Assembly (NCBI RefSeq): GCF_019578655.1
Contig: NC_063264.1
Span: 992,001 to 1,056,000, forward strand
Direction of reading: 5' to 3'
Source of the DNA: Ricinus communis
Lineage: Eukaryota; Streptophyta; Magnoliopsida; Malpighiales; Euphorbiaceae
Length of the DNA stretch: 64,000 nucleotides
Of the stretch, positions 39,130 to 47,530 are shown piece after piece. The stretch's first letter is position 1, and every line of letters starts with the position of its first letter. Made by a program: the position numbers and the translations under genes. Under the pieces are notes generated by a model. That model worked only from the letters and a program-made list of their open reading frames with translations. It was not told where the DNA came from and made no database searches.

Positions 39130-40670
39130 CTTCTATTTTTCTTACCTATAACTCACGGTCGAGCAGTCATTAATCAGTGGCCAAACTATGTCTAATAAGT
39201 TATAGCATGAAATAACCAACCTAATAAATTTAGCTGCTACCAATCAAACGATAGAAGAGCGTGTTGCACATCTGAGCAGTTTGAGGTAATTAAAAAGAAT
39301 TTTGGCATTACGACTGCTTCCCTTTCCGGCAGTGCCATTTTCAAGAGAATAACAAAACCTCGTCACCTTTAATTCGGCAGTCTAGTTAGTGTTATATAAC
39401 AAATCAATGATCATCTTTCTGAATAATCCCAAAAGTTTATATATATTATTATTTTTTGAAATATCAAAGGAATATAAAACTATAATGTATCAAGAATGTT
39501 GATATTAATAATTTATTACAATACCTAATTTGGAAATGGGATGAATCATTGTAAGGCGCATTATTATTGACTTTATGGTATGATAGATTAATAGGTGATA
39601 ATACAACACTTTTCATATAGATATATATGGCAAGCCAAAAGATCAATTCAAGATTTGTTTTGGTGCCAATAGCCTGCTTGATTACGTAGACAGGTGTGTG
39701 TATCTCTATTTGACCAAAATCTAAAATATAGTTATTATCACCTCATTTGTATTTTAAAAGCTGGGGATAGGTATGCATATCACCATGGCTATATCCCGAT
39801 TAGGCCAACTTGAACTAGCCCGATTAAAATTAGAACTAATCCAATCCTAATTTATAAAGAGAGTTACTCCAGATTTGGTTCCCTCCTTGGGTAATCTAAA
39901 CAAAAATCATTTTAACATTTTATATTCCGAACTGAATAAAATTAAAATCAAATTGAAATTGTTCAATTTTTAACCAAAATGAAAACCATATTTACCAATG
40001 TATTTAGTTCCAACTCCATCATAAAATGAAATTAAACCGACTAATTCGGTTTTGAATTGCGGTATTATCTATTTTTCTTTTTTGACAATATATAAATATT
40101 TATTTATTATGAATAAGATTGGATTCAAGTGTTACCCTCCACTTCAATTGGATTTTATTTTCTGCCGGTCGGATTATCTTTTGCCAATTGGATATCATAA
40201 TTTTGATTGTCGATTTCATTTTACAAATTTTTCCAATTCTATCTGTATCATTATTTCACACATATCAATCCAAAAGAATTCTTTCATATATCATTTCATC
40301 ATTTAATTTCATATTGATTAATTTAAATTATCAAAGTTATACTTTTTTTTCATCGAAATTATAAAGTTGTAATTAACGTCATACATATTTCAATTCAATC
40401 AAAATATTACCAACCCAAATCAAAACCACTTTAATTCTATTTGCTTTTGTATCACCAAAAAGTCTTAAACTTGAAGAAATAATGGCCACTGCGAATAACA
40501 ACTCATTATACACATAGAACAAGAGGGATTAGCCACGCTTATTATTTAAGAAAAAATACCCATTTTCTACCATAATTAAACTTGGAAGCCACAACTTTGC
40601 TCACATTTCACATGATAGCGGTGGACGGGTCCAGTCCACAGAATTGGTATCGGATTCTAGTTATAAACGG
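39130..40670. other. Intergenic region
   Basis: No gene seen. From about 39780 to 40440 the sequence is rich in degenerate AATTGAAAT/CCGATTAAAATT motifs that look like decayed repetitive DNA, but I could not define ends or a coding domain. Confidence 0.5.
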
Positions 40671-40676
40671 AGCCCA

Positions 40677-40709
40677 TCTCTCTCTCTCTCTCTCTCTCTG
40701 CCTATAAAA
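40677..40709 (+). promoter_or_regulatory. Pyrimidine patch and TATA box of MIR403
   Basis: A (TC)n run at 40677-40699 is followed immediately by TATAAAA at 40703-40709. A start of transcription would be expected about 30 bases on, near 40735, ahead of the miR403 hairpin at 40783. CT patches beside a TATA box are typical of plant Pol II promoters, including MIR genes. It is about 310 bases from the SLD5 ATG, so the same promoter could also produce SLD5 mRNA with the hairpin in its leader. Confidence 0.6.
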
Positions 40710-40780
40710 GGGCATAACTAAATCTAGGCACCTGCTCTGCGAATCTAGTCCAATTTTAATATTTTTCCCCAAATAGAAAG

Positions 40781-40900
40781 ATGAGACGTATCTCTAGTTT
40801 GTGCGTGAATCGAGCCCCATCATCAAGGCCGTTCATTTTGAGGCCCCACGAATCCAATGGTGTTAGATTCACGCACAAACTCGTGATCTGTCTCCTCTAA
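40781..40900 (+). other. 39-codon open frame running through the miR403 hairpin
   Basis: An ATG at 40781 opens a frame of 39 codons (MRRISSLCVNRAPSS...) that passes through both hairpin arms and stops with TAA at 40898-40900. If the SLD5 mRNA starts at the TATA box at 40703 it would be an upstream open frame; if the pri-miRNA is translated it could be a miPEP-like peptide. There is no evidence for translation and chance is a fair explanation. Confidence 0.2.
40783..40894 (+). ncRNA. MIR403: MIR403 precursor hairpin
   Basis: Bases 40863-40883 equal the conserved plant miR403-3p as I recall it (21 nt, beginning TTAGATTCACGC). The opposite arm, 40796-40811, pairs perfectly with 40866-40881 over 16 bases. 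The helix continues outward with small loops to GAGAC (40783-40787) paired to GTCTC (40890-40894), with a loop of 54 bases between the arms. The expected star strand is 40796-40816, leaving 2-nt 3' overhangs. In eudicots miR403 directs cleavage of AGO2 (and AGO3) mRNA and is held in check by AGO1, linking it to antiviral silencing. The hairpin ends 126 bases before the SLD5 start codon on the same strand. Confidence 0.93.
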
Positions 40901-41020
40901 ACACACATTACACTTCATTTTGCCGCCACTCCTATTTCTAATTCTACGATTTTCCCTCTCAAATTAGTGATAAGAAATAATAAAGATCGAGATAGAGCAA
41001 GCGAGTAGTAATCAGATCAG

Positions 41021-43915
41021 ATGGCTAATACTGGATCTGGAGAGGGATCAATGAGTGCGACCTTGATGGATGATTACGAAACGCTGATTTCTACGACTGA
41101 TGTTGAGCTCTTGAAAAGAGCGTGGCGTAATGAGAAAGCTGCACCAGAGATTCTTCAGTACGAAGCTTCTTTAGTTCAGAGAATTAAAGAGCAGATTGAA
41201 TTGGCGGTATTGTTTTTTTCTCTAAACCCTAACTTTCTGTCTGTTTACCGAAGAAGAAAATAAAATTATAGTAGGAGAAGAAATTACACTTTAACCGTAT
41301 CCTCTCTGCTCTGTTTCACTGTTTTGTTACTTTCGAGCAATTTAATGGCCAATTGTTTTATTGAAGCAATATGCTAGTTTTTGTTCTTTTCTTTTCTGCT
41401 GATGAAATTAATTAATATAGGTTGGTGTCTGTTAGGATTAAGGAGTGTGAAAATAACTGGTGTTCAATTAAATATGCCTTTTCTTTTAATTTATCTGGTA
41501 TAATACTTTATGCTTAAATTTTAATACCAAATTGATGTATGTTTTCTGAAGGAACAAAATGTGGAGATATTTGAAACGGATGGTATAGATCCCCTGACTG
41601 TGTCGCTTTACCAAATGGACCTAGACAGGGCTCAGTTCTTATTGAGATCGTATCTCCGGGTTCGCCTCCAAAAGGTTGCTACAAATTTTAACAATTTTTT
41701 TGGGTTAAAAAATTACATTAAAATTTCATGGAGCTACTTGTTAATGATGTAAATTTATTGCAGATTGAGGAGTACTTATTCCACATTTTAGGAAATGATG
41801 CCCATCGAAACCGGCTTTCTGACCAGGAGCAAATCTTTGCAGAAAGGTGAAGGTGTTATTTTATTTACCTCATTTGTACGATGTAGTAGAATTTGCTTGC
41901 AGGTTATTGATTAAGATTACTGATTGTGAAATTCACTGCCTGATTATAGGTGTGAGAATGATCTCAGAAACCATCTTGATGAAACTGTTCTTGCAAAATT
42001 GCCTGATAATTACCAGTCTACACTCAGACAATCCATAACAAGTGAAGAGGATGACATGGGTAATTTTTAAACTTTTGGTATTATGTGTTTGGTTGCCAAA
42101 GCTATTAGTTCTTTTTACTACTTATATTGTGGAGTTGATTGTATATTGAACAGAAGAAATATGTTGAATCCTTTTTAAATTATATAGTTGAGTGCAAGGT
42201 AACTTCATTTAAGAAATAACTAGTTTCTGCAGTAATGAAACGTTGGTGCGTGTTAGGTGTTGGTTCAAGAATTGGCACGTACATGTTTTTTTTTTTGAAG
42301 ATTTTGTTATAGATTGTGCATAGAATATTTAAAGGCGTGCAGAGATGCTTTCCTTTCCTTACTGTGCTTATAGTATGATACTGCGCTTTAGATACTGCTC
42401 TGTTGAGCTTTATGTTGAAATTTAGTACTGTGACCTTTTCTGCTCTTAGCATGATATGGGGGATGCAGAACATACTGCTCAACCTCTAAATATCTAATGC
42501 TTGCTTAGAGTTGACAGTTGCACTAAGTTATGGAAATGTGTGATGATGATCCAGTCAGATTATGCTTGAAATGAACTTGTTAAGCCGATCCTAGGAGCCT
42601 TACTTCTGTGTACAATGATGGTTCTTGAGATGTGTCTTGTACATTATTATCATCCAAGACAATCGCGTTGTGGACTATGATTAACCGTTTGGGATTTTCA
42701 GGCAGGAATGTTTTTGTGTTCTGCTGAGCATTTTGAATACTTTGGAGAACATTGTGCTTTAGTGCCTGTCATTTTGAGTAGATTATGATCTCCAAGTAAT
42801 TTGTGAGGTCTTATTTATTTATTATTATACGTCATCTTTAGGAGAATCTCTTTGTGGACCAATTTATTTCAATTGGAACTTTCAATTGTTTATGACAAAA
42901 GAAGGAATCCAAGCATATCCTACCTTTATACTCACCACCCAATAATTTTGTTGTGAGCTTATCCTGTGATGATGATTCCAATTTAGTCAGAGTGAAATCT
43001 TGAACCATACTTGTTAATTAGCTGCGGAACCTTGCAGTTGCACTTTGTTCAGTGGAAATGTGGAATAGCTAAGCAACTTGAGGCATTTCTTTTTTGTTGA
43101 AGTTGTCATCACTCAAGAAGTGCATATGCTGCGAGATCTTAAGTCTCACACATAGTGGAAAGGCATCTAGAATATTTGATTTTCTATGTTGAAGGCATTT
43201 CTGTTTCATTTAATTCTTGTAAGTAGATTTTTGATAAGCTGCATCTAAATTATCTTGTATTATCCGATAGCTTTTGCATTAAATTTCACCTTGGTCATTG
43301 GGTTATTAGGTTAATACCATTTTGTTTCTAAAATGAGTTTGGAACTGTATTTATTGCTACACATTATCAGTAGCGCTTTTGGAGTTTCTTTCTTTGTGCT
43401 CTATTGATCTTGTTGAAATGGCATCTTAATCAACATAGCAAAGTTTTTCTAGCTTATAGAAAAGGATGTCTGTTAGACCGCCACAAGGTTCAAGAATTGG
43501 CCCATCCCTCCTTTTACTTGGTTTATTAGCCATGTATGAGTTCTTATGGGAAATACTATGCCATATTATTTTTAAGTGAACTTTGCACCAGAAAAATTAT
43601 ATGTTTATAATTTCTCTAATACGTTCTACAGTGCCAGCACCACGGCTAGACACATTTGTTATTTGCAAAGCCAGGCAGTATCTCTCCGGCATGGACTTTG
43701 AACCTGAGTACAGGTAAATGTCTGATTGGAGGCCAATCGTTTCATTCCTCCATTCACTGTATTATCTTGAGATGAGAAGTAAAGAGAATGACTCTGTTGA
43801 ATGTATCTATTGTGGCAGTATGGAAATCACAGAGATGGAACGTGATCTACTTACATTTGTATGTTACAAGTTCATAAAGAAGCCATTGGAGAAGGGGAAA
43901 ATAGATTTGGTGTAA
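41021..43915 (+). CDS. SLD5: GINS complex subunit SLD5
   Basis: Six exons (41021-41206, 41552-41674, 41764-41846, 41950-42059, 43632-43713, 43819-43915) join in frame to 226 residues, close to the family's usual length of about 220. All introns are GT-AG; intron 4 is about 1.6 kb. The sequence carries the SLD5 hallmarks: an acidic N terminus (LMDDYETLISTTDVELLKRA), a helical A-domain (IDPLTVSLYQMDLDRAQFLL, RSYLRVRLQKIEEYLFHIL, ENDLRNHLDETVLAKLPDNY) and a small C-terminal B-domain ending DLLTFVCYKFIKKPLEKGKI. SLD5, with PSF1-3, forms the GINS tetramer, which joins CDC45 and MCM2-7 in the nuclear CMG replicative helicase. It should be expressed in dividing cells. MIR403 lies just upstream on the same strand. 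Confidence 0.95.
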
Positions 43916-44675: not shown

Positions 44676-45188
44676 TTAAAGATCAAAACACAAAATCTTA
44701 ATCAAATCATCAAAAGATACACAATCTTTTTTATTGCCGCCACTACTAGAACCTAACTTAATCATAGCCTTAATATCTTCGTCATTAGCATCAAAACCAG
44801 CTAATTGCATATAACTTTTCAAATCATCATGACTTAATTTCCCATCCCCATCTTTATCCATAACCTTAAAAACATCTTCCAAAACTCCATTGCAGCAACT
44901 CCTTTTCTTTTTATTGACATCATTACCGTCCAAAACACGCTCAAATTCATCGTACTCCACGAAACCATCCTTGTTAAAGTCAGCTACGGACATCATGGAC
45001 CCTATAACATCATCATCGCCATCATCTCCGACGCCGCCGTTCTGTATTCCAGCGTAAAACATTCGAAGATCTTCTTTGCTAATCTTGCCATCGCGGTCTG
45101 CATCAAGAACATCGAATGCTGTCCTGAAATGTAGCCCCGACGACGCCGTTTTTGTGTTTGATGCTATACTTCTGCCAGACGGACACAT
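44676..45188 (-). CDS. CP1: EF-hand calcium-binding protein, CP1-like
   Basis: Intronless, 170 residues, with the family start MCPSGR. Three canonical EF-hand loops are visible: residues 29-40 (DADRDGKISKED), 70-81 (DFNKDGFVEYDE) and 111-122 (DKDGDGKLSHDD). The fourth site near 150-160 (GGNKKDCVSFDD) lacks the acidic loop start and probably does not bind calcium. Overall order and the blocks MMSVAD.NKDGFVE and VFKVMDKDGDG.LS match Arabidopsis CP1, reported there as a salt-induced calcium-binding protein (from memory). It should act as a cytosolic calcium sensor of the calmodulin-like type, with unknown targets. Upstream TATA and ABRE-like motifs suit stress induction. The alternative name would simply be a CML protein. 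Confidence 0.92.
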   Translation of the reverse strand: MCPSGRSIASNTKTASSGLHFRTAFDVLDADRDGKISKEDLRMFYAGIQNGGVGDDGDDDVIGSMMSVADFNKDGFVEYDEFERVLDGNDVNKKKRSCCNGVLEDVFKVMDKDGDGKLSHDDLKSYMQLAGFDANDEDIKAMIKLGSSSGGNKKDCVSFDDLIKILCFDL

Positions 45189-46647: not shown

Positions 46648-46840
46648 TGGGCCAACTTGTTTATACGAATGAACTTTGTTGTGGGCTGACTTATTGGGCT
46701 CATCTGCACCAAATTTGGACTCGACTTAAAGCAATATACCTGTAAAATGCAATGGGAGTTTCGAAGACCGAGGTGTTTTTAGTAATTTAATACCACAATT
46801 GGGCAAAACCCTACTTAAACCTAAATTCCACTATATATAA
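46648..46840 (+). promoter_or_regulatory. Site II / telo-box / TATA promoter of the snoRNA locus
   Basis: TGGGCC at 46648-46653, TGGGCT at 46682-46687 and 46695-46700, a telo-box AAACCCTA at 46806-46813 and a TATA box (CTATATATAA) at 46831-46840 follow each other in this order. Site II plus telo-box is the combination described for plant snoRNA and ribosomal protein gene promoters. No ribosomal protein frame follows, whereas a box C/D snoRNA does, so I assign the promoter to the RNA locus. Confidence 0.7.
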
Positions 46841-47254: not shown

Positions 47255-47337
47255 GGGCTCCGATGATGGCATGGAATCTTTGAGACCTGACGTTATCTAA
47301 TTTGATGACAAATATAAGCATAATTTCTGAGGACCCC
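47255..47337 (+). ncRNA. Box C/D snoRNA predicted to guide 18S rRNA C38 methylation
   Basis: The terminal stem GGGCTCC (47255-47261) / GGACCCC (47331-47337) has one mismatch. Boxes follow in order: C (GATGATG, 47262-47268, first T of the consensus replaced), D' CTGA (47287-47290), C' TGATGAC (47303-47309) and D CTGA (47327-47330). The 12 bases before D' (47275-47286, AATCTTTGAGAC) are perfectly complementary to GTCTCAAAGATT near the 5' end of plant 18S rRNA. The base paired five nucleotides upstream of D' is C38 in Arabidopsis numbering, counted from remembered sequence. I see no good target for the guide before box D. It lies about 400 bases downstream of a snoRNA-type promoter. Cm38 is a known plant 18S site as I recall. 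Confidence 0.82.
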
Positions 47338-47425: not shown

Positions 47426-47530
47426 TGAAGATGATGAAAATGCACTGGGCTCTGAGCAGGCTGTTGACAGCAGCTATAGCTTATTTGATGCACAATTGCA
47501 GCCTAGAAAGCTATGTCTGATCACATTTAT
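47426..47530 (+). ncRNA. Possible second snoRNA in the same transcript
   Basis: About 90 bases after the first snoRNA, a consensus box C (ATGATGA, 47431-47437), CTGA at 47452-47455, TGATG at 47486-47490 and CTGA at 47517-47520 are in C/D order, but no convincing terminal stem or rRNA guide is apparent. The same stretch could instead be the end of an H/ACA RNA: ACAGCA (47467-47472) as H box, a hairpin with ATAGCTT (47476-47482) paired to AAGCTAT (47508-47514), then ACA at 47523-47525. Either reading is tentative. Confidence 0.3.

Follow-up and report, generated by a model that had tools for sequence, protein, structure and literature searches.

The castor bean (Ricinus communis) genome carries a MIR403 hairpin directly ahead of the SLD5 gene, on the same strand and with 126 bases between the end of the hairpin and the SLD5 ATG. 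The sequence bears this arrangement out, and it is somewhat unusual. It lies in a window of 64,000 nucleotides (NCBI RefSeq assembly GCF_019578655.1, contig NC_063264.1, forward-strand positions 992,001 to 1,056,000), whose numbering is used throughout (Table 1). The start sites of the two genes are probably separate and packed into about 300 bases. We hold, with moderate confidence, that MIR403 and SLD5 are tandem genes with separate promoters, and that some MIR403 transcripts read through into SLD5 and are cut as pri-miRNA.

Table 1. Features of the MIR403-SLD5 region, in window coordinates.
Feature	Position	Strand	Details and basis
TATAAAAG, presumed MIR403 TATA box	40703-40710	+	Pattern only
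Short ORF, 39 aa	40781-40900	+	Runs from upstream ATG 40781 through the hairpin and 6 bases of the gap
MIR403 precursor hairpin (castor rco-MIR403b)	40786-40893	+	Rfam, fold, exact castor 5'-arm read
rco-miR403b star sequence	40791-40811	+	Exact match to castor small-RNA table (PMC3722108)
Mature miR403, 3' arm	40863-40883	+	Exact 21-mer; sequence match
Gap, presumed SLD5 core promoter and leader	40895-41020	+	126 bases; willow-model alignment
E2F-type site TTTTGCCGCC	40918-40927	+	Motif match inside the 126-base gap
SLD5 (GINS subunit)	41021-43915	+	Six exons, GT-AG introns, 226-aa protein
SLD5 exons	41021-41206, 41552-41674, 41764-41846, 41950-42059, 43632-43713, 43819-43915	+	
Telo-box-like AAACCCTAA	41224-41232	+	Near 5' end of SLD5 intron 1

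The MIR403 hairpin and its small RNAs

The hairpin is a true MIR403 precursor. It matches the Rfam MIR403 family (RF00842) at 96.8 bits against a gathering score of 70 (E 6.5e-21), and this match, together with the SLD5 gene model, confirms the spacing and shared strand claimed in an earlier note on this DNA. The predicted fold of 40760-40920 has an energy of -51.6 kcal/mol (z -6.64), which none of 200 shuffles reached, and that of the hairpin alone has -47.8 kcal/mol. Mature miR403 pairs opposite 40794-40814, with two 5'-side positions unpaired. RF00842 also passes on the minus strand at 40784-40891, with a margin of 1.3 bits (71.3 versus 70), as expected because the hairpin is a near-palindrome; an antisense MIR403 transcript of that segment could fold likewise.

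A castor small-RNA study (PMC3722108) lists an identical mature sequence for rco-miR403a and rco-miR403b, and this sequence is the one found here on the 3' arm. For the guide, loci a and b share one set of read counts (761, 309, 368, 2293 and 1061), and the rco-miR403b star has 5, 3, 0, 5 and 1 reads in five castor libraries. Both arms are listed among the castor small RNAs. The listed star, at 0-5 reads per library, differs from the expected MIR403 duplex in lying 5 bases upstream of the register that the hairpin pairing predicts for a 2-nt 3' overhang. Since these reads are few and their register is shifted, they speak for expression of the arm rather more than for precise processing. The castor locus agrees with the Rfam family and rco-MIR403b in its hairpin, its mature sequence and a listed castor 5'-arm read. 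Against that family the hairpin itself has nothing marked about it; what is unusual is its place ahead of SLD5.

The miR403 family restrains the antiviral protein AGO2. A further study (PMC8145795) gives miR403 target sites in the AGO2 3' UTRs of four plants other than castor. The exact miR403 21-mer had no match in IMG/VR, which was scanned for plant contaminant contigs. The 39-codon reading frame over the hairpin was considered as a gene and judged probably a chance ORF. A second upstream ATG stands at 40857, before SLD5.

The SLD5 gene

The coding gene that begins at 41021 encodes the GINS subunit SLD5. Its protein scores 38.9 bits against the Pfam Sld5 model (cut-off 22.3) and 48 bits against SLD5_C (cut-off 27), and it matches a solved chain of GINS subunit 4/SLD5 (2e9x_D) at 7.3e-21. 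A search for relatives found 442 proteins, the best 120 of which were listed for comparison. Among those 120 the best-scoring relative is that of Mercurialis annua (87% identity over the whole query). A shorter entry, from Ricinus communis, has 100% identity across 86% of the query, in keeping with DNA from castor bean or a plant very close to it.

The telo-box-like AAACCCTAA near the start of intron 1 is one of four copies on the plus strand of the window and is weak evidence alone. A calmodulin-like EF-hand gene lies tail to tail with SLD5 at 44676-45188 on the minus strand.

TATA box and E2F-type site

The earlier note held the TATA box at 40703 to be the only clear one. This was borne out: it is the sole plus-strand match to TATA[AT]A[AT] in 40200-41020, with none on the minus strand there. 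The same pattern occurs 182 times on the plus strand of this AT-rich window, and TATAAAAG itself three times, so the TATA box at 40703 is by itself weak evidence. Pyrimidine-purine start candidates follow it at 40726, 40730, 40734, 40739 and 40741.

The gap between hairpin and ATG contains an E2F-type site, which is absent from the earlier note. TTTSSCGC, a plant E2F consensus, occurs only twice in the 64 kb on both strands. It is contained in 238 of the 63874 placements of a 126-base segment and, when the gap is shuffled 5000 times with its dinucleotides kept, in 13 of the shuffled sequences; these frequencies are post hoc, the site having been spotted before the statistics were made. The rarity depends on the strict consensus, because the looser WTTSSCSS is found 22 times in the window. 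With this motif match near its presumed start, SLD5 is a candidate E2F-regulated gene. Arabidopsis SLD5 (At5g49010) is among the predicted E2F targets that overlap with earlier studies, according to PMC2982689. Like the E2F-controlled plant replication genes described in that paper, castor SLD5 is a replication factor with TTTSSCGC about 100 bases before its ATG, but its promoter would be squeezed in behind a microRNA hairpin.

Directly before the SLD5 ATG, at 41012-41020 on the plus strand, stands TCAGATCAG, one base off TCAGATCTG. The latter is described in PMC2664809 as a motif just downstream of MIR168 hairpins that is enriched in an Arabidopsis group with MIR403. The likeness is likely to be chance.

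An extended SLD5 model in willow

The SLD5 model of Salix brachista (273 aa) has 53 extra residues before the normal start. An anchor pattern placed 110 of the best 120 of the 442 relatives, and within these a long N-terminal extension is seen in the Salix brachista model only; the remaining 10 start normally, judged by eye from their first 50 residues. When castor 40784-41020 was translated in three frames, 26 residues of the extension aligned without gaps to 40888-40965, in one frame, with a score of 45. None of 2000 shuffles did as well in the three frames (best 44), a margin of one point over shuffles that keep base composition only, for an alignment that rests on one gene model among the best 120 of 442.

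Castor carries a stop codon in the aligned frame, so the likeness is one of leader DNA and not of protein, and the extra N-terminus of the willow model looks like translated leader. The willow residues F-W-R-H align with castor TTT TGC CGC CAC and fit TTY TGG CGN CAY. The E2F core (TTTSSCG) is thus likely, rather than proven, to be kept in willow, and is not certain because the R codon could be AGR. The alignment begins 6 bases inside the end of the castor hairpin, which hints that willow keeps MIR403 at the same place.

A region search with the Salix extension found only the extension itself, and a search in which the hairpin ORF was fused to SLD5 yielded no candidate. Nine short hairpin-coded peptides, sought in the first 120 residues of the best 120 of the 442 relatives, gave one match, SRTN in the Nelumbo protein, which was judged to be chance.

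A predicted miR403 target in raspberry

Among the predicted targets of miR403-y in a raspberry study (PMC9810812) is 'DNA replication complex GINS protein SLD5'. In that study reads were mapped to the raspberry transcriptome and some targets carry Unigene numbers (to at least 62736). On psRNATarget-like scoring, where lower is better, no miR403 site in the castor SLD5 coding sequence does better than 10.75; 200 shuffled coding sequences gave a median best score of 10.25 and a lowest of 6.75. With a score of 3.0, the 5' arm of the MIR403 hairpin is the best miR403 site on the plus strand of the window. Because castor SLD5 has no good site and the hairpin arm is a good one, the raspberry transcript is most simply read as holding the hairpin. 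The published 'target' would then probably be a match of the hairpin to the transcript that contains it, and MIR403 and SLD5 would be adjacent, and joined on at least some transcripts, in another rosid order. No published description of the MIR403-SLD5 adjacency was found in a search with supplements and most subscription journals outside its range.

The raspberry listing also bears on the strongest competing account, according to which the two castor transcripts are fully separate, pri-miR403 ends right after the hairpin, the adjacency is chance and the raspberry prediction is false. The prediction was lax, with an expectation below 5 and 24,112 target genes for 361 known miRNAs. At about 67 targets per known miRNA, in a set whose Unigene numbers go that high, however, the chance naming of SLD5 would be rare, and such a listing is what a joined transcript predicts. 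In addition, termination would have to take place within 126 bases. We regard full separation as rather unlikely.

Transcription of the tandem genes

In the reading we prefer, MIR403 would start from its own TATA promoter, with the box at 40703 and a start near 40730, and SLD5 from a TATA-less promoter with the E2F-type site inside the 126-base gap. Normal SLD5 mRNA would then be made without the hairpin and so would escape cutting by DCL1. There is little room for termination after the hairpin, and some MIR403 transcripts may therefore continue into SLD5. In plant miRNA processing, DCL1 cutting removes the cap from the host transcript. Read-through RNA would accordingly behave as a pri-miRNA, from which DCL1 would excise the hairpin and leave an uncapped SLD5 fragment to be degraded. 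Even uncut, a joined transcript would be a poor SLD5 mRNA, because the ATGs at 40781 and 40857 and the hairpin itself precede the coding sequence.

The earlier note had left the choice between a TATA-less promoter of SLD5's own and one transcript shared with the pri-miRNA. The E2F-type site and the willow alignment favour the separate promoter, and the shared transcript survives only in a weaker form, some read-through into SLD5, which is plausible. The cap loss that the note proposed for SLD5 mRNA would likewise hold for read-through RNA, as general knowledge of miRNA processing suggests, and not for mRNAs started in the gap.

The strong form, in which SLD5 has no separate start, is unlikely. 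As an explanation of the locus it would have the TATA box at 40703 make a single transcript on which DCL1 processing competes with SLD5 mRNA output. It draws on the single TATA box in 40200-41020, on the raspberry listing (PMC9810812), which suggests a transcript with both hairpin and SLD5, and on the precedent of an exonic miRNA in rice, miR3981 in a glyoxalase gene (PMC3464803), for which such competition has been proposed. Against it stand the E2F-type site in the gap, which is possibly conserved, and the upstream ATGs and hairpin, which would hinder SLD5 translation. Arabidopsis SLD5, which by locus code is on a different chromosome from MIR403, needs no such promoter. Together these points make a single promoter distinctly improbable.

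The rice gene is nevertheless the nearest known kind. As described in PMC3464803, exonic miRNAs of this type likewise have a sense-strand hairpin on a transcript that may hold coding sequence, and the competition between DCL1 and mRNA output proposed for the rice case is shared with the read-through proposed for castor. They differ in that in castor a promoter belonging to SLD5 apparently follows the hairpin, and only read-through RNA would then be affected. The rice glyoxalase is also a putative target of its miRNA, whereas the castor SLD5 coding sequence lacks a good miR403 site.

Removal of the hairpin by splicing, as an intron in the SLD5 5' leader, would let one transcript give both products, but is very improbable. 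An AG at 40966 does lie behind a pyrimidine-rich stretch. The stretch from 40730 to the 5' arm, however, has GTs only at 40748 and 40788; both stand in donor contexts that look poor on inspection, and the second is inside the stem.

Linkage in other plants and its meaning

The earlier note raised the linkage of MIR403 and SLD5 in other eudicots. It is absent in Arabidopsis, where MIR403 (AT2G47275) and SLD5 (At5g49010) are on different chromosomes by the locus codes given in PMC3264603 and PMC2982689. Neither gene therefore depends on the linkage.

In a wider scenario, many rosids would share MIR403-SLD5 as an ancient tandem unit: pri-miR403 would normally run through SLD5 and lower SLD5 output while MIR403 is active, by promoter occlusion and DCL1 decapping, and an E2F-driven inner promoter would override this in S phase, tying antiviral AGO2 control to the cell cycle. 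This is a speculation to which we give little credence.

Returning to tandem genes with separate promoters, frequent read-through would mean that miRNA processing destroys the transcript of a replication factor and that SLD5 output is tied to MIR403 activity. Without frequent read-through, the locus still warns that the miR403-SLD5 'target' published for raspberry may be a self-match of the hairpin. The castor case also suggests a way for SLD5 to be expressed from a gap of so few bases.

A snoRNA pair in the window

Two C/D snoRNAs, snoR66 (47259-47334) and snoR118 (47427-47523), lie 92 bases apart on the plus strand. Upstream of them are three TGGGCY elements (46648-46695), a AAACCCTA box (46806) and a TATA-like stretch near 46831, and the two snoRNAs look like parts of one gene that has a promoter to itself.
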